A DNA stretch of 64,000 nucleotides from Salisaeta longa DSM 21114 (lineage in GTDB: Bacteria; Bacteroidota; Rhodothermia; Rhodothermales; Salinibacteraceae): positions 2,767,001 to 2,831,000 of the forward strand of contig NZ_ATTH01000001.1 of the NCBI RefSeq assembly GCF_000419585.1. The letters are read 5' to 3'. The translations under genes were made by a program, and so were the position numbers. Each line of letters begins with the position of its first letter. The stretch's first letter is position 1. The notes beneath the pieces were generated by a model. It ran no database searches, was not told the origin of the DNA, and saw nothing but the letters and a program-made list of their open reading frames with translations. Of this stretch, positions 24,810 to 35,040 are shown piece by piece.

Positions 24810-27059
24810 TTGCTCGAAGCGCTGACAGTACCCGTGGCCAAACACCTTGAACGCGATCTCGGACTGTATGCCACCATCACCGTAAGCATTGGGGCCATGG
24901 TGGGCAGCGGCCTCTTTGTGCTGCCCGGCCTGGCCGCAGCCAAAACGGGGCCATCAATCATCGTTGCGTACGTGCTGGCCGGACTCATCGTGTTGCCGGC
25001 GGCGCTGTCGAAAGCCGAGATGGCCACCGCCATGCCCGATGCCGGCGGCACCTACCTCTACATCGATCGGGCGATGGGACCCCGGATGGGCACCATCGCT
25101 GGGCTTGGCGCGTGGTTCTCGCTCGTGTTCAAAAGCGCGTTCGCCCTGGTCGGGCTGGGGGCGTACCTCGTGTTGGTCGTTCCGGTGGGCGGGCTCGGGT
25201 TGAAGGCCATGAGCCTGCTCCTGGGGGCAGCCCTTGTCGGGATCAATCTCGTTGGCGCGAAGCAATCCGGGCAGCTGCAAGCCGTCATCGTCACCGTGGT
25301 GGTGGGGGCCTTGCTGGTGTTTGGGGCCGACGGCGTCACGTACGTCAATTCGGCGCGCTACCATCCCTTCTTTACGGACGGCGCCAGCGGGTTGCTTGCC
25401 GCCACAGGGTTCGTGTTTGTGTCGTACGCCGGTGTTACCAAGGTGGCGAGCATCGCCGAAGAGGTGGCCAATCCAGACGTCAACTTGCCGCTTGGCATCC
25501 TCCTTTCGGTTGGGATTATGATTCCGCTCTACGCCCTTATCACCTTTGTGGTGGTGGGCGCCACCACGCCGGCCGCGCTGCATGGGAGCCTCACGCCGAT
25601 GGCCGAGGCGGCATCGCGCATATTCGGATCGGTTGGCGTGCCCATCATCTCCATTTTGGCCGTCCTCGCGCTAACAAGCATGGCCAACGCCGGCCTCTTG
25701 TCGTCATCGCGCTTTCCGCTGGCCATGAGCCGCGACCGCCTGGCGCCGGATGTGCTGGCCACCATCAGCGATCGCTTCCGCACGCCCACCTACGCGCTGT
25801 GGATTACCGGCGCGCTGCTGTTGGGGCTCATCGCCTTTGTGCCGGTGCTGGAGCTGGCCAAGCTGGCCAGCGCATTCAAGATCCTCATCTTTACGTTCAT
25901 CAACGGCGCGCTGATCGCCTTTCGCGAGAGCGGGCTGGAGAGCTACGATCCGGCGTTTCGTGCGCCCGGCTACCCGTGGGTTCAGCTCGCGGGCATCGGT
26001 GGCGGGGGGCTGCTGCTCACGCAGATGGGCTGGCTTGCGCTGGGCGGAGCCGTGGGCATCATTGGCATGGGCTTGTTGTGGTACCGCCTGTACGGACGCG
26101 AGCGGACCGCGCGCGAAGGCGCAGCGCTCGATGCCATCCAGCGTGCCATTCAGCAGCGCGCGCTGGTGCGAATCGACGAGACGTTTGCGATCCGCGAAAC
26201 GAACGTCATGATTACGCTCGACCCGTCGGCTTCGCCGGAGACCGAGCGGTTCTTGCTTGCTATTGGCGGCAGCGTTGCGCAGAAGTGGGACGGAGCCGTT
26301 GCGGCGGTGCGCATGGAGGAGGTGCCCAGTCAGACGAGCCTCTCGACGGCCGCCGATGCAATTGCGTCGTTCGACGCGGCGTTCGAGGAGCGCGTGCAGC
26401 ACTGGGGCGCGACGCACGAGGTGCCGGTGACGGCGCACGAAATTGTGTGCCACGATGCCGAGCGGGCCATGCGCACCTTCGTGGACACGCAAAGCATTGG
26501 ATTGCAAGTGGGCGGCGCGGTGCCCGGGCGGTGGCGTTTTAAGCTGCTGGGCCACGATGTGGACGAGTACATGCGCGATGTGCCCTGTGAACACGCATTT
26601 CTGGACGATGCCCACGCGGCCCCCGATGCCGTCGACACGGTGGCCGTGTTCACCCAGCGCGGTCCGTACGGGCCGCTCAAGGTGGTGGTGGCTGATGCCG
26701 TAGCCGCCCACTACGGCGCCACCTTGCGGTTCGTGACATCAGTGCCCGGTGCGGCCTCTGACGACCACCGCGGGCGCGTCAAAGCATTTCATGATGACCT
26801 GGCAGAGCGCTGCAGCGCCCCCACAACCTCGGTGGTGCACACGGCCGAACCGGTACACGACACGCTGCACCGAGAGGCAGCACAAGCCGATATCGTCGTG
26901 CTCGGCACCGTGCCCCGCACGCGCTTGCAAACCTTCTTGATGGACGATCTGAGCTACGACCTCGCCACGGCACTCGACGTCCCCGTCTTGCTCGTGCGGC
27001 CTCCAATTCCACGCGGGCCGGTGGTGCTCCCGAAAATTGTGGAGCGCCTCGCCTTTTGA
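24810..27059 (+). CDS. APC-family amino acid permease fused to universal stress protein domains
   Basis: Residues about 15-430 form a permease of the amino acid-polyamine-organocation superfamily, with about 12 hydrophobic segments. The first helix has the unwound motif ISIGAMVGSGLFVLPG-like (VSIGAMVGSGLFVLPG), and the adjacent helix reads AALSKAEMATAMPDAGGTYL, both characteristic. Residues about 450-749 are soluble and contain two universal-stress-protein-like halves. The second ends with DIVVLGTVPRTRLQTFLMDD and VPVLLVRPP, close to the USP nucleotide-binding pattern. Fusions of this type are thought to let nucleotide or stress signals tune uptake. The start is a TTG at 24810, chosen because it is the first codon before the helix region; a nearby Shine-Dalgarno is not obvious. 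Substrate unknown. Confidence 0.85.
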   Translation: MLEALTVPVAKHLERDLGLYATITVSIGAMVGSGLFVLPGLAAAKTGPSIIVAYVLAGLIVLPAALSKAEMATAMPDAGGTYLYIDRAMGPRMGTIAGLGAWFSLVFKSAFALVGLGAYLVLVVPVGGLGLKAMSLLLGAALVGINLVGAKQSGQLQAVIVTVVVGALLVFGADGVTYVNSARYHPFFTDGASGLLAATGFVFVSYAGVTKVASIAEEVANPDVNLPLGILLSVGIMIPLYALITFVVVGATTPAALHGSLTPMAEAASRIFGSVGVPIISILAVLALTSMANAGLLSSSRFPLAMSRDRLAPDVLATISDRFRTPTYALWITGALLLGLIAFVPVLELAKLASAFKILIFTFINGALIAFRESGLESYDPAFRAPGYPWVQLAGIGGGGLLLTQMGWLALGGAVGIIGMGLLWYRLYGRERTAREGAALDAIQRAIQQRALVRIDETFAIRETNVMITLDPSASPETERFLLAIGGSVAQKWDGAVAAVRMEEVPSQTSLSTAADAIASFDAAFEERVQHWGATHEVPVTAHEIVCHDAERAMRTFVDTQSIGLQVGGAVPGRWRFKLLGHDVDEYMRDVPCEHAFLDDAHAAPDAVDTVAVFTQRGPYGPLKVVVADAVAAHYGATLRFVTSVPGAASDDHRGRVKAFHDDLAERCSAPTTSVVHTAEPVHDTLHREAAQADIVVLGTVPRTRLQTFLMDDLSYDLATALDVPVLLVRPPIPRGPVVLPKIVERLAF

Positions 27060-27103
27060 TCACCTGTTTTGATTTTGCGTCAGAAGGGGACGCGGGCGAC
27101 GCG

Positions 27104-27352
27104 TTACCGGTCGTCCGTGTCGTCCCAGTCGTCCTCCTCTTCGTCTTCGTCGTCCCAGTCCTCATCATCCCAGTCGTCCTCGTCGTCCCAATCCTCGTCC
27201 TCCTCCCAATCGTCCAGGTCGTCGAGGTCGGCTTCCTCGTCCCAGTCGTCGTCTTCCAAATCGAGGTCCTCCAAGTCATTGTCTTCGTCGTCCCAGGCGG
27301 CCTCATCGTCCCAAACATCGTCGTTTGCGGCGTGTATCGAAAAGTTATCCAT
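27104..27352 (-). CDS. Hyperacidic Trp-Asp repeat protein, 82 residues
   Basis: From the ATG at 27352 the frame encodes 82 residues, of which 53 are Asp or Glu. After a short ordinary N-terminus (MDNFSIHAAND) it becomes a low-complexity array of units like DWDDED and DLEDLDLEDDD, with a Trp roughly every 5-10 residues. Trp residues spaced in a polyacidic chain are seen in some intrinsically disordered, charge-shielding or histone-like-binding proteins. I know of no family match. A polyacidic protein fits a salt-in halophile. The opposite strand read in one frame is poly-Ser/Gln, so coding should be confirmed. It converges with the permease gene and diverges from hisD. Confidence 0.6.
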   Translation of the reverse strand: MDNFSIHAANDDVWDDEAAWDDEDNDLEDLDLEDDDWDEEADLDDLDDWEEDEDWDDEDDWDDEDWDDEDEEEDDWDDTDDR

Positions 27353-27518
27353 AGCAGTCAAGAAATAAGAGGCGCGATGCGCGCATTCTGTGAGAGGTTG
27401 TGCGAATGCGCAAGAAAATGACAGCGCCGGTACAATGCAACGGGCACATTGGAAAATGTCGACACTACCATTTGGCGGAATGTGCCTTCCGTGAACCTGT
27501 TCATCAGCCCTCTGCACC

Positions 27519-28823
27519 ATGCCCTTGCTCCCCATTGTATCGTACGACGAGCGCCACGCCATGCTCGATGCGGTGCTCAGCCGAAGCGCGTCCTTCAGCG
27601 ACACGGTAGACGCTGCCGTGGCCGAGATCCTGGCAGCGGTGCGTGCCGAGGGCGACGCAGCGGTTCGTCGGTTCACCGCGCGCTTCGACGACGTGACGAT
27701 CGAGGCGCCGCGCGTGCCGCCGGCTGCGCTAGCCGACGCGTCGGCGGCCCTCGATGATGCGCTGCGCTCGGTCATTGCCGATGCGGCCGCCAACATCCGC
27801 CGCTTTCACGAGAAGCAGGTGCGGCAGTCGTGGTTTACAGAAGACGGGGATGGGGTGGTGCTGGGCCAGCGCGTGATGCCCATGGACCGCGTGGGCCTGT
27901 ATGTGCCCGGCGGCACGGCCTTTTATCCGTCCAGCTTGCTCATGAACGCGATCCCGGCGCAGGTTGCGGGGGTCGAGGAAATTCATCTCGTATCGCCGCC
28001 CCAAGCCAACGGCCGCCCCCACCCGCTGGTGTTGGCCACGGCGCATTTCCTGGGGCTGGAGCACGTGTACGCCATCGGGGGGGCGCAGGCAGTGGGCGCA
28101 CTCGCGTTTGGCACAGACACGGTGCCGGCAGTCGATAAAATTGTGGGCCCCGGCAATGTGTACGTGGCGGCGGCCAAAAAGCAGGTGTACGGGCGCGTGG
28201 CCATCGACTCGGTGGCTGGGCCCAGCGAAATCGGGATTCTGGCCGATGCCACGGCCGATCCGTCCTTCGTGGCGGCCGACCTCATTTCGCAGGCCGAGCA
28301 CGATCCGCGCGCCTCGGCGGTGCTCGTTACGCCGCATCGCCCGCTGGCGGAAGCGGTGCAGCAGGACGTGGAGACGCGGGTGGCCGCGCTGCCCCGCCGC
28401 GACATTCTTCAGCAGTCGCTGCCCAACTTTAGCGCGTGCGTCGTGACGGACACCATGGCGGAGGCCACGGCGCTCATCAACGAGCTGGCGGTCGAGCACC
28501 TGGAGATCCTGACCGACGACCCCTGGGCCACCATGACCGACATTCGCCATGCCGGCGCCATCTTCTTGGGGCCGTATTCCTCCGAGCCGGTGGGCGATTA
28601 CTTTGCTGGCCCGAATCACGTGTTGCCCACCGGAGGCACCGCGCGCTACGCTTCGGCGCTGGGCGTCGACGACTTCGTGCGCACGCAGTCCGTGATTCAG
28701 TACACCGCGCAGCGCCTGGAGCAGACGGGCGATGCCATCGTCGCTTTTGCCGAGGCCGAGGAGTTGCAAGGACACGCCGAAGCCGTCCGGGCGCGCCTCA
28801 AGAAGCTTCGCGGCAACGCGTGA
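27519..28823 (+). CDS. hisD: Histidinol dehydrogenase
   Basis: HisD performs the last two steps of histidine synthesis, oxidising histidinol to histidine with NAD and zinc. The 434-residue product shows [20 protein letters not shown] near residue 128 (first 20 residues of the block), [19 protein letters not shown] near residue 188, and [19 protein letters not shown] near 207. It continues with [18 protein letters not shown] near 230, and [16 protein letters not shown] near 256 with the zinc/catalytic His. The C-terminal [20 protein letters not shown] holds the catalytic His pair. Length is normal. No other his gene adjoins it; hisC is 19 kb away, so histidine genes are scattered here. The ATG at 27519 follows a 166-base gap from the divergent hyperacidic ORF. 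Confidence 0.97.
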
Positions 28824-28831
28824 GAAGGCGG

Positions 28832-29197
28832 CTACACGGTCAGGGTCGACGGATCGAAGGCGGTGAACAGCGAGCCGGTAAGTACGGCGATGAGGAGCAC
28901 CGCTACGATGAACAGAAGGGCAAGCGCAAATAGCACCACTTGCGTAAGAAAGAACAGGCGCAGTTTGTCGAGCATGCGCACGAGATCCGCGGGCGACGGG
29001 CTGTGGGCAGCGTTGCCCGCCTGGTACAGCAGCACGCCCAGCCAGATATACAGCGCGCCGATGAGCACCACGAGGTACATCACCCCGATGATGATGTTGA
29101 TGACGCCCAGAATCTTTAGCCAGCGGCTGGTGTCTTCCGCCTTGGAGGCGATTGCTTCGAGGAGATCGTGGGCCGATGCGGAGGAGAAGGCGTCCAT
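28832..29197 (-). CDS. Small membrane protein with two to three hydrophobic segments
   Basis: I do not recognise this 121-residue protein with confidence; it is of the size and style of DUF5362-like membrane proteins. It has a soluble N-terminus (LLEAIASKAEDTSRWLKI), a long hydrophobic stretch at about 25-58 that can form two helices (GVINIIIGVMYLVVLIGAL), and a short amphipathic helix (ADLVRMLDKLRLFFLTQ). A last helix near 90-112 is rich in Val, Leu and Ala. The ATG at 29197 is preferred to the upstream one at 29242, since it begins just before the conserved-looking soluble part. It ends 8 bases after the convergent hisD stop. Confidence 0.65.
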   Translation of the reverse strand: MDAFSSASAHDLLEAIASKAEDTSRWLKILGVINIIIGVMYLVVLIGALYIWLGVLLYQAGNAAHSPSPADLVRMLDKLRLFFLTQVVLFALALLFIVAVLLIAVLTGSLFTAFDPSTLTV

Positions 29198-29292
29198 AGG
29201 GCAAAGGGGAATGGAGCGGGCCGTGGGAGCTACAAGATGCACCGTGCGCCGGTCATTGTAAAGGCGCAGGACGGGAGCCGCGCGGCCATCCT

Positions 29293-29648: not shown

Positions 29649-30407
29649 CTACGATCGCCCGCGGGCCGCGGCAAAGAGAAACAAGGACGCCGCCACACTC
29701 ACGTTCAGCGACTCCGCCGGACCGCGCATCGGGATGGCCGCCAGCGTGTCACACGCCGCTGCAACGTCCGAGGCAAGCCCGTCGCCCTCGCTGCCCACAA
29801 CAATGACCACCGGCCGCTCCCAGTCGACCGCCCACAGCGACGTGTCGCTCGTGCCCTCGGCGCCCACCACCCAGTAGCCCCGCTCCTTGCACTGCGTCAG
29901 GAACGCGGCCAGGTCGTCGGTGCGGGCAATGGACAGGCGGGGCGCGGTGCCCGCGCTGGCTTTGATGGCGGTTGCATTGAGCGGCGCCATGCCCCGGCTG
30001 GGCACCACCACGCCGTTCGCGCCAGACGCTACGGCGCTGCGCAAGATGGCCCCGAAGTTGCGCGGATCGGTAACCCGGTCGATGGCCAGGAGCACGGGCT
30101 TGCGCGTCTGCACATCGTCCCAGGTGGGTGCCACGGCCGTCAGCAGGTCGTGCGGGGTGTCGTAGCGCATCGGGGCGGTGATGGCGGCCACGCCCTGGTG
30201 CACCGCGCCCTGCGCCTCGTGCCGCAAGCGGGCCTCGGGGACGTACTGCAGCGGAATGCCACGCGCCTGCGCCGCCTCGCGGATGGCGCGGATGGTGCTG
30301 CCGTGCGCGTCGTGCTCCAGCATTACCTTCTCGATGCCGACATCCGCGCGCTCCAGCAGCTCGCGTACGGGGTTGCGTCCTACGACGGTAGAAGTATCAG
30401 CAGTCAT
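29649..30407 (-). CDS. rlmB: SpoU/TrmH-family 23S rRNA 2'-O-methyltransferase
   Basis: RlmB methylates the 2'-hydroxyl of a guanosine in 23S rRNA using SAM. The 252-residue protein has an N-terminal substrate-binding domain, with VVGRNPVRELLERADVGIEK at the start. A SPOUT catalytic domain follows from about residue 100, with the trefoil-knot motifs: VTDPRNFGAILRSAVASGAN (motif 1 with Arg), VVGSEGDGLASDVAAACD (motif 2) and PMRGPAESLNVSVAASLFLF (motif 3). Spacing to the Omp85-like gene upstream is 39 bases, and it is the last gene of the clpX-yihY-Omp85 run. Assignment to RlmB rather than another TrmH-type enzyme is by the N-terminal region and length. Confidence 0.9.
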   Translation of the reverse strand: MTADTSTVVGRNPVRELLERADVGIEKVMLEHDAHGSTIRAIREAAQARGIPLQYVPEARLRHEAQGAVHQGVAAITAPMRYDTPHDLLTAVAPTWDDVQTRKPVLLAIDRVTDPRNFGAILRSAVASGANGVVVPSRGMAPLNATAIKASAGTAPRLSIARTDDLAAFLTQCKERGYWVVGAEGTSDTSLWAVDWERPVVIVVGSEGDGLASDVAAACDTLAAIPMRGPAESLNVSVAASLFLFAAARGRS

Positions 30408-32678: not shown

Positions 32679-33766
32679 GAATCGGCAGTGGACGACGGGC
32701 GAGACGAGATGTCGGGGGGGGACGCCGGGGGAACCGCGGGCGGCGGCGCGGGGCCATGGGATGCAGCCTCGGCCGCCGGCGCCTCATTCGCTGTTTGGGA
32801 TCGGCTTGTCACGTGCCGGTGTTCGCGCAGCGAGGCTACCACGGCCCCTAGCATGAGGACGATGCCCGAGAAGTACACCCAAAAGACGAAAGCGATAATA
32901 AGCCCAAACGTGTTGCCCAGCGCGCTGAGCCCGGCGCCGCTGGCCGCGTATTGGTCGAAGTGGCCCACGTAGGTGGCGTAATAGGCAAATGCTTGCTTGG
33001 CGCCCTCCCACAGCACGCCGGCGACGGCTGCGCCGATCAAGGCGCTTGTTTTGCTCGGCGGCGGCTTGGGCACGAAGTAGTACAACTGATAGAACATGGC
33101 GCCGGTGATGAGCAGCGGCACAAATACTTTCAGGGCATGAAAGAGCGCTTGCGTGCGGCGAATGACGGCATCGAGGCCCGGCACTGCGCCGCTGATTTCG
33201 TTGAGGAGCGGACCGACAAGGGTTGAGAGGCCGATGGTGAGCGTAAAGAGGATGCCCACCTGCACCACCATGCGCACATCGAAGAGGTAGCCGCCCAGTA
33301 CGGATCGGCTCTCGTGCCAATCTTGCTCGAAGGCGTTGCTTACGGCGATGCGCAGCGTGATAAAGAGCGAGACGGCCGAGAGAAAGAGGCCCGCGCCCCC
33401 CAGGCCGATGACGGTACCGCTGGCGCTTTGCAGCTGGTTGAGAAACTCGATGAGCTGGGTGCTCTGCGCCGGCGGCAGAAAGTCGCGGATGAAGCGGGCG
33501 ACGGTGGAAAAGGCATTATTGCTTTGCAGCACGCGGCCCGCGACACCGGTCGAGAGCACCACGATGGGCACCACCGTCACCAGCACCTTAAAGGCGATCG
33601 CCTGCGCCCATAGGAACAGGTTTTTTTGCGAGATCTCGTGGTAGAGGCCCCGCGCATAGTAGCCCAGCGTGGCCTGTGCGGCCTGCCACCGGCGCGAGTG
33701 CGCGAGGCGCTTGTACAACTGCTCATACAAGCGCGAGGGCTCCTCCTGTTCAGCATTGGTGCTCAC
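32675..33766 (-). CDS. YihY/BrkB-family inner-membrane protein
   Basis: This 363-residue protein has the YihY/virulence-factor BrkB fold: a cytoplasmic N-terminus and six hydrophobic helices. The typical opening is NLFLWAQAIAFKVLVTVVPI near residue 50, followed by GTVIGLGGAGLFLSAVSLF and the conserved end of the domain, YATYVGHFDQYAASGAGLSA. A Pro/Ala-rich tail of about 50 residues follows. The family was once called RNase BN, but that activity belongs to another protein; its role is unclear, and a transport or envelope function is proposed. It overlaps clpX at its start and the Omp85 gene at its end by 4 bases each, so the three are co-translated. Confidence 0.88.
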   Translation of the reverse strand: MSTNAEQEEPSRLYEQLYKRLAHSRRWQAAQATLGYYARGLYHEISQKNLFLWAQAIAFKVLVTVVPIVVLSTGVAGRVLQSNNAFSTVARFIRDFLPPAQSTQLIEFLNQLQSASGTVIGLGGAGLFLSAVSLFITLRIAVSNAFEQDWHESRSVLGGYLFDVRMVVQVGILFTLTIGLSTLVGPLLNEISGAVPGLDAVIRRTQALFHALKVFVPLLITGAMFYQLYYFVPKPPPSKTSALIGAAVAGVLWEGAKQAFAYYATYVGHFDQYAASGAGLSALGNTFGLIIAFVFWVYFSGIVLMLGAVVASLREHRHVTSRSQTANEAPAAEAASHGPAPPPAVPPASPPDISSRPSSTADS

Positions 33767-35040
33767 GCGCTTGCTTTTCGTGATTCAACAACGGGCGGGC
33801 GTCCGTCGCAAACGGTGGCCTCAGTAATCAGACAAGCGTCGGCTGCGGGCGAACGGTGGATATCGTACATAATGTCCAGCATCACGCGTTCCATAACCGA
33901 CCGCAGGCCGCGCGCGCCCGTGCCCAGCGAGCGCGCGCGCTCCACGATGGCCGTCAGGGCGGCGTCCTCAAAGTGGAGGTCGATGCCGTCGAGCGCAAAC
34001 AGCTTTTGGTACTGCTTCACCAGCGCGTTTTTGGGTTCCACCAGGATGCGGCGCATCTCGTCGACAGTCAGCGCGTTGAGCGCGGTGGTTACGGGCAGGC
34101 GGCCCACAATTTCGGGAATCAGGCCAAAGCGCAGCAAGTCATCGGGCTCTACGTGCTGAAAGATGCGCGGGTCGTCTTTGTCGATGCGCGGCGGATGATT
34201 GGCGCGCGCCGTGGCGCGAAAGCCCATGGCCCCCGAGGTGCGCCGACGCGCAATGATGTCGCCCAGCCCGTCAAAGGCCCCCCCGCAGATGAACAAGATG
34301 TTGGTCGTGTCGATGGGCACTAGGCTTTGCTCGGGGTGCTTGCGCCCGCCTTTGGGCGGCACGTTTGCCTCGGTGCCCTCCAGTAGCTTCAGCAGCGCCT
34401 GCTGCACGCCCTCGCCCGAGACGTCGCGCGTGATGGAGGCGTTTTCGCCTTTGCGTGCCACCTTGTCGATCTCGTCAATGTAAACGATGCCACGCTCGGC
34501 CTCCTCCACCTCAAAGTCGCAGGCCCGCAGCAGGTTCGAGAGAATGCTTTCCACATCTTCGCCCACGTAGCCCGCTTCGGTAAGCGCCGTAGCATCCGAG
34601 ATGGAAAACGGAACCTCCAGGATGCGGGCCAAGGTGCGTGCGAGGAGCGTCTTGCCCGTGCCGGTGGGACCGATGAGCAAGATATTGGATTTTTCGAGCT
34701 CCACGTCGCGAAACTCGGGCGCATAGGCCTCGGCCGATACGCGCTTGTAGTGGTTGTACACCGCCACCGCCATCGCCTTTTTGGCCTGGTGCTGCCCGAC
34801 CACGTATTGATCGAGGGCCTCCACAATCTTTGGCGGCGTTAGCGAACGCACCTTGGGGCTGTGCGTGTACGTAGCAGCGCGCGAGCCCCCGCGCTGATCG
34901 CCATCCACGATGTTCGCGGCTTCCTGAATGCAGCGGTCGCAAATGTACACATCGGGACCGGCCACCATCGAGGCGGCCTCCTGGGCGCTGGACCCGCAAA
35001 ACGAGCAGCGTATCACGTCATTTCCCGATTGTTTGCCCAT
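33763..35040 (-). CDS. clpX: ATP-dependent Clp protease ATP-binding subunit ClpX
   Basis: ClpX unfolds tagged proteins and feeds them to ClpP. The 425-residue product opens with a C4 zinc-binding domain ([14 protein letters not shown] and [14 protein letters not shown]). The AAA+ domain has Walker [16 protein letters not shown] near residue 117, Walker [12 protein letters not shown] near residue 182, and the pore loop in [11 protein letters not shown] near residue 150. The RKH-type loop (KGGRKHP) and the sensor/arginine finger region GFRATAR to PEIVGRLPV follow, then the small domain ending in [20 protein letters not shown]. The IGF-type ClpP-binding loop is present as AMGFRATAR, slightly changed from the usual IGF. 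clpP is not nearby. It is the first gene of a four-gene minus-strand operon. Confidence 0.96.

Follow-up and report, generated by a model that had tools for sequence, protein, structure and literature searches.

A small hyperacidic, tryptophan-containing ORF of Salisaeta longa, a candidate polycation-binding polyanion, and its look-alikes at polyamine genes

Proteins that mimic DNA are folded and carry acidic side chains positioned like the phosphates of the backbone. Polyamine synthesis is acted on by antizyme-type and leader-peptide control, and MgtL-type ribosome destabilisation and SpeFL are the leader systems that invite comparison. We analysed a hyperacidic ORF in a 64,000-nucleotide stretch of the Salisaeta longa genome (the window). 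A link to polyamine synthesis is common to antizyme-type or leader-peptide control and the look-alikes of this ORF only; unlike those systems, the window ORF has no predicted fold, no frameshift site and no cis arrangement.

A nearer parallel in composition comes from human cells, where, according to PMC12461607, spermidine analogues favour D/E-rich, often disordered stretches and proteins with at least 10 Asp/Glu in 20 residues. The window ORF resembles these stretches in acidic density and disorder, but they are segments of larger human proteins, whereas the product of the ORF would be a small bacterial protein in its own right, would contain Trp, and is a putative binder. Acidic proteins in polyamine operons were not described among the open-access matches listed in our literature searches, few queries of which came near the topic.

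The window ORF and its coding potential

The initial annotation had reported an 82-codon ORF with 53 Asp/Glu residues; its coordinates proved correct, and the strand is minus (Table 1). The translation of 27352..27104 contains 38 Asp, 15 Glu and 8 Trp, with a computed charge of about −52 at pH 7. Its single Arg stands at the C-terminal end (...DDTDDR), with no terminal Trp. The Trp residues had been called regularly spaced, which applies only loosely: the gaps are 6, 17, 12, 6, 6, 5 and 10 (P(min gap ≥ 5) = 0.019; P(sd ≤ observed) = 0.056).

Table 1. Coordinates of the window ORF, its flanking genes, and a second acidic-tailed protein at look-alike loci
Feature	Position	Strand	Details
Hyperacidic Trp-containing ORF, 82 aa	27104..27352	minus	ATG at 27352, TAA at 27104-27106
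Acidic core, codons 21-82	27107..27292	minus	47 GAN, 6 TGG, 9 other codons
N-terminal 20 codons, lower acidity, with the first two Trp	27293..27352	minus	translation
Intergenic gap holding the ORF, 459 bases	27060..27518	none	between permease and hisD
Amino acid permease, APC type, convergent to the ORF	24810..27059	plus	Pfam AA_permease_2 + AA_permease
Histidinol dehydrogenase hisD, divergent from the ORF	27519..28823	plus	Pfam PF00815
Second acidic-tailed protein	L143:10112-10663, L144:10121-10666, L145:9318-9884, L147:4590-5021, L148:5439-5855		polyamine loci
Second acidic-tailed protein, weaker match	L170:3326-3580		

The permease, for which the NCBIfam matches listed were all under their cut-offs, and hisD are the genomic context of the ORF; a functional link to it is not shown. 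Between hisD and rlmB, a small DUF5362 (PF17319) protein is encoded at 28832-29242 on the minus strand.

The Asp/Glu density of the ORF is not due to chance. The best 82-codon stretch in each of 20 dinucleotide shuffles of the window held 12-14 Asp/Glu, and the remainder of the real window reached at most 23 per 82 codons, compared with 53 in the ORF. The openness of the acidic frame is no argument for coding, because other frames are also open at the same place (plus 27056-27421, plus 27069-27368 and minus 26779-27318). An in-frame ATG further upstream, at 27796, would extend the product to 230 aa, antisense across the start of hisD, and a start at 27352 is more natural. For Asp and Glu, codon usage (GAC 79%, GAG 67%) is similar to that of seven pooled neighbouring genes (68% and 74%). 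Across the acidic core, with Trp codons excluded, departures from GAC at codon positions 1, 2 and 3 numbered 8, 8 and 25 (binomial p = 2.6e-4). Selection for acidity would be expected to produce this third-position excess and free decay of a repeat would not, although part of it could stem from the repeat unit itself. TRF found only poor tandem arrays (64-86% matches), and a search of both strands of 26500-28000 gave no promoter-like site. Judged from its sequence, the ORF is probably a gene, and we infer its expression.

A run of nine acidic codons matched the whole S. longa genome once, at the ORF. Each of the 26 further family genomes had between 0 and 26 matches, a tally that includes overlapping ones, and the pattern read backwards gave a single match, in G010 (G, L and f numbers are our handles for genomes, loci and families). 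Thirty such loci were fetched from the family; most of those that passed a filter of 16 Asp/Glu in 30 residues proved to be the tail or linker of a longer frame, and one (L195) was a short repeat of Asp that lacks Trp.

Modelling of the 82-aa product from its single sequence with AlphaFold2 yielded no secondary structure and a pLDDT of 57.7, although single-sequence models are often poor. The initial annotation had also raised possible mimicry of nucleic acid; the model, with that caveat, shows no fold. Pfam and NCBIfam gave no match for the ORF above a curated cut-off, and indeed no match at all, and PDB sequences only two (E 2.7). As a protein query against 100 genomes, the ORF matched one, its own, and no ortholog was found; among the genomes listed there was none from another member of the genus. 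Protein homology search was rejected as a way of finding relatives: it missed look-alikes even in genomes that have them, and DNA patterns were used instead.

Look-alike ORFs beside polyamine genes

Pattern 1, two Trp with acidic codons between them, was run on 27 family genomes and 394 sampled genomes of the phylum. Within the family it matched only the window's own genome (1/27; 0/26 others), and in the phylum sample it matched 23 of 394. Stand-alone small acidic ORFs, a status decided by reading translations, were present in nine of these 23 genomes and lay at polyamine genes in seven of the nine, all but the window and G246. The motif lay inside other proteins in the remaining 14 genomes, ten of which had it within one protein family of f18, which we take to be Balneolaceae. 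This f18 family (L118-L127, ten genomes) is a conserved protein, ~260 aa long, that carries a W-(D/E)-W acidic insert in its interior; for one member there was a sub-threshold 23S_rRNA_IVP match (E 0.005, 17.5 bits vs a cut-off of 33.8).

Pattern 2 matched 23 of 114 genomes of the order, presumably Rhodothermales, and its reversed control gave one match (G089). Both patterns match the window ORF. A stand-alone ORF of this look was found in 13 of the 23 genomes, and in all of these but the window (12 of the 13) it immediately adjoined polyamine genes: speA, aguB, aguA and usually a homospermidine-synthase-like gene. In the remaining ten, the match belonged to another protein, came from a microsatellite (G056) or was fortuitous. 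Two f3 proteins were left out of the stand-alone count (G042 and G028, at L267 and L268); these are ~90-aa proteins in which two pairs of Cys, resembling a zinc ribbon, come after an acidic Trp-containing stretch. The 100 matches in G056 (loci L266 and L288) come from a dispersed (TGGGAGGAG)n microsatellite.

The neighbours common to the first seven polyamine loci were speA, an aguA-like gene and an aguB-like gene, joined in four of the seven by a deoxyhypusine-synthase-family gene. The speA product (arginine decarboxylase) scored above the cut-off of an NCBIfam equivalog. The agmatine-deiminase-like AguA and N-carbamoylputrescine-amidase-like AguB were above cut-off for Pfam PAD_porph and CN_hydrolase, respectively, and under the NCBIfam equivalog cut-offs. 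The deoxyhypusine-synthase-family product was above cut-off for PF01916, its best NCBIfam match being 'homospermidine biosynthesis protein', below cut-off. Because these NCBIfam scores fall under the cut-offs, we base the labels aguA, aguB and 'homospermidine-synthase-like' on family membership and gene context.

We also counted from the speA side. A speA match was found in 44 of the 114 genomes, and 42 were read, two fragments (G083 and G456) not being included; acidic ORFs of >400 aa or overlapping enzymes by >100 bases were excluded. In 20 of the 42, an acidic Trp-containing ORF immediately preceded the operon or, in f4, diverged from speA, and in G457 the upstream part, on another contig, also carried one, giving 21/42 in total. 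By family, the ORF was present in f5 (16/16), f4 (3/3), f12 (1/1) and f2 (1/2). It was absent at the speA loci read in f1 (1), f3 (7), f6 (1), f7 (2), f8 (1), f9 (1), f10 (1), f11 (1) and f13 (5, of which L179 and L192 lack an upstream stretch). L175, L179 and L192 start at or just before speA, the upstream part of the L175 genome being found on another contig, and L163 and L164 contain only the end of the ORF. At 17 same-strand loci, the ORF stop lay 6-107 bases before the match to the next enzyme. Outside the order, none of 32 homospermidine-synthase-like loci, chosen from 127 genomes with such a gene, had an ORF with 14 Asp/Glu in 30 residues within ~2.6-3.4 kb upstream. Given 21/42 speA loci inside the order and 0/32 outside it, the linkage is a trait of part of the order and not of polyamine genes generally. 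The ORF is also dispensable for making polyamines, since the other 21 of the 42 speA loci were read without it.

Searches of Pfam with ten look-alikes and related proteins, and of NCBIfam with six, gave no match above cut-off, and we know of no name for these ORFs. We considered a leader-plus-core modified peptide and rejected it, as no maturase recurs beside the ORFs and the seven loci of the order share polyamine enzymes among their neighbours. A second small acidic-tailed protein recurs at polyamine genes (Table 1), after the Trp-containing ORF in f4 and after aguA in the g13 group of f5; its f4 copy had no match in Pfam or NCBIfam.

Pairs of look-alikes were compared over stop-to-stop frames, which include stretches before the start codon, and low-complexity alignment is uncertain. 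In the closest pair (L143/L144), codon-position differences were 3/5/34, pS was 0.38 vs a pN of 0.06, all nine Trp were kept, and the lengths differed by whole codons with the frame open. The g13 trio kept 5/5 Trp in each pair (pN 0.12-0.16 vs pS 0.29-0.33), and pN was likewise below pS in L161/L162 (0.13 vs 0.46) and L163/L164 (0.18 vs 0.64). The pattern was less clear in L167/L166 (0.22 vs 0.36), L143/L145 (0.26 vs 0.30), L149/L174 (0.35 vs 0.48) and L167/L168 (0.34 vs 0.34), with Trp kept from 8/10 down to 3/5. These alignments show purifying selection, with Trp retained, for the close pairs and are less clear for the others; in this respect the look-alikes act like genes. Trp spacing was more regular than chance in the f4 ORFs and the f12 ORF (P ≤ 0.001) and at most weakly so in the five f5 ORFs tested.

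The polyamine-linked ORFs are small, stand-alone and hyperacidic, with Trp inside the acidic core, as is the window ORF, whose core is at least half Asp/Glu (53/82 overall) with several Trp inside it. They adjoin speA and its partners, whereas the window ORF lies between the permease and hisD; the f5 ORFs, moreover, have further conserved columns and a C-terminal Trp (12/15 in the pair comparison), which the window ORF lacks. Against shuffles of its own composition, the window ORF aligned with z of 3.5-3.8 to three of 11 look-alikes (L145, L146 and L150) and of 0.5-2.2 to the other eight. L150 is the G246 locus, itself away from polyamine genes. Its ORF (L150:9788-10117; z 3.5) is like the window ORF, with 109 aa and Trp gaps of 7, 7, 17, 7, 10 and 7, but is not beside hisD: it lies between an rlmB-like gene and a gene that we read as clpP-like, followed by clpX. 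In both the window (29649-30407, 33763-35040) and G246 (L150:7745-10878), rlmB-like and clpX genes occur within a few kb of the ORF, perhaps by coincidence.

The window genome had no match to PF17810 or PF01916 and none to speA at 1e-40. Its only PF02784 match (G000:C1:63809-64516, L194) lies inside a 923-aa frame that is probably a fused lysine-pathway enzyme. Polyamines can also be made by other routes, among them those via SpeD-derived pyruvoyl enzymes (PMC10407285). Because the genome is without speA and a homospermidine-synthase-like gene, the window ORF may be either a relative that has moved away or a case of convergence, and we do not claim its membership of the polyamine-linked class. 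A relic of a polyamine locus was considered and dropped (0/8 window neighbour genes match polyamine loci), as was synteny via hisD: no hyperacidic ORF (20 Asp/Glu in 40 residues) adjoined hisD in L003-L039, loci that for the most part extend no further than 1.5 kb upstream, in some cases less, and of which L032-L039 partly repeat the same genomes. Two unrelated matches occurred there, an acidic tail in L025 and a frame in L037.

A proposed polycation-binding polyanion and the competing readings

We favour, at a probability of about 0.42, the reading in which a genuine small gene encodes a disordered polyanion that would bind polycations, either polyamines or basic proteins. The acidity and charge, the codon-position bias, the absence of a predicted fold, the selection in the closest look-alike pair and the D/E-rich stretches of human cells speak for it. 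The dense Asp/Glu of such an intrinsically disordered chain would bind polycations, and the spaced Trp side chains could add anchor points (cation-pi or hydrophobic). The protein would be soluble and would bind, buffer or antagonise polyamines or basic proteins. The window copy would work like the polyamine-linked ones despite its place away from polyamine genes, in a genome without speA. That a polyanion could bind cations or basic proteins had already been proposed in the initial annotation. The linkage of look-alikes (12/13 in the order, 7/9 in the phylum sample) strengthens this proposal, which is plausible on present comparisons, with binding itself only predicted. Counting against it, the window copy is itself the exception to the linkage, similarity beyond composition is clear for 3 of 11 look-alikes only, no promoter-like site was seen, half of the speA loci read have no such ORF, and salt might screen polycation binding in a salt-in cell.

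A tentative alternative, which we take seriously, is a young lineage-specific acidic ORF of expanded acidic codon units, perhaps translated, that is convergent with and unrelated to the polyamine-linked proteins. No such ORF occurs in the 26 other family genomes or beside hisD in the relatives' loci read. The window shares no neighbours with polyamine loci, searches with speA, PF17810, PF01916 and PF02784 turned up no polyamine gene in its genome, similarity beyond composition is weak for 8/11 look-alikes, and poor tandem arrays are visible. The codon-position bias, however, speaks against this origin, as do a Trp spacing and composition resembling the f4, f12 and G246 forms, the three with the high z. 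It is unlikely that the stretch is not a gene at all, a slippage product of low complexity that goes untranslated: the several open frames, the lack of a promoter-like site and the lack of an ortholog would all fit, but the third-position excess, a codon choice like that of the neighbours and a density far above that of the shuffles do not. The earlier suggestion of a slippage repeat coding only by chance is disfavoured by the same codon-position test, and for the look-alikes only, the selection pattern in close pairs likewise speaks against it.

Mg2+- or polyamine-sensitive translation of the acidic stretch might instead control the next gene, making the ORF a cis-acting leader. The 17 loci with the ORF ending just ahead of the first enzyme on the polyamine-gene strand favour this, but in three f4 genomes the ORF is divergent from speA. 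The window ORF, being divergent from hisD and convergent on the permease, leads no gene, and we consider this reading improbable. Least credible of all is one more acidic-proteome product of a salt-in halophile, with no specific role. In favour, Salinibacter ruber and Salisaeta longa are both described as having high intracellular KCl (PMC3817357). However, the ORF is the genome's only nine-codon acidic run, its seven neighbouring genes have 5.5-12.4% Asp/Glu, several looking like membrane proteins, and the Trp pattern is absent from the 26 other family genomes; on these grounds the view of the ORF as striking halophile acidity is not supported. Greedy ORF calling picks wrong frames at this G+C, and for that reason we set aside a window-wide pI (median 8.35).

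Implications for polyamine biology in the order

That hyperacidic ORFs with Trp recur next to polyamine genes in part of the order is a more interesting result than the window copy. Hyperacidic ORFs are commonly dismissed as low complexity and evade standard homology searches; a DNA pattern combined with neighbour anchoring shows one sort recurring at polyamine genes under selection. It is a speculative extension, and on balance a doubtful one, that part of the order carries undescribed disordered, hyperacidic, Trp-spaced proteins wired to polyamine synthesis as polyamine sponges or sensors. These would be a counterpart, in role and not in fold, of antizyme-type control, and the window copy would have outlived the loss of its polyamine genes and would now manage other polycations. 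If polyamine binding proves true, such proteins would give bacteria a specialised means of buffering or sensing polyamines, which are abundant polycations.
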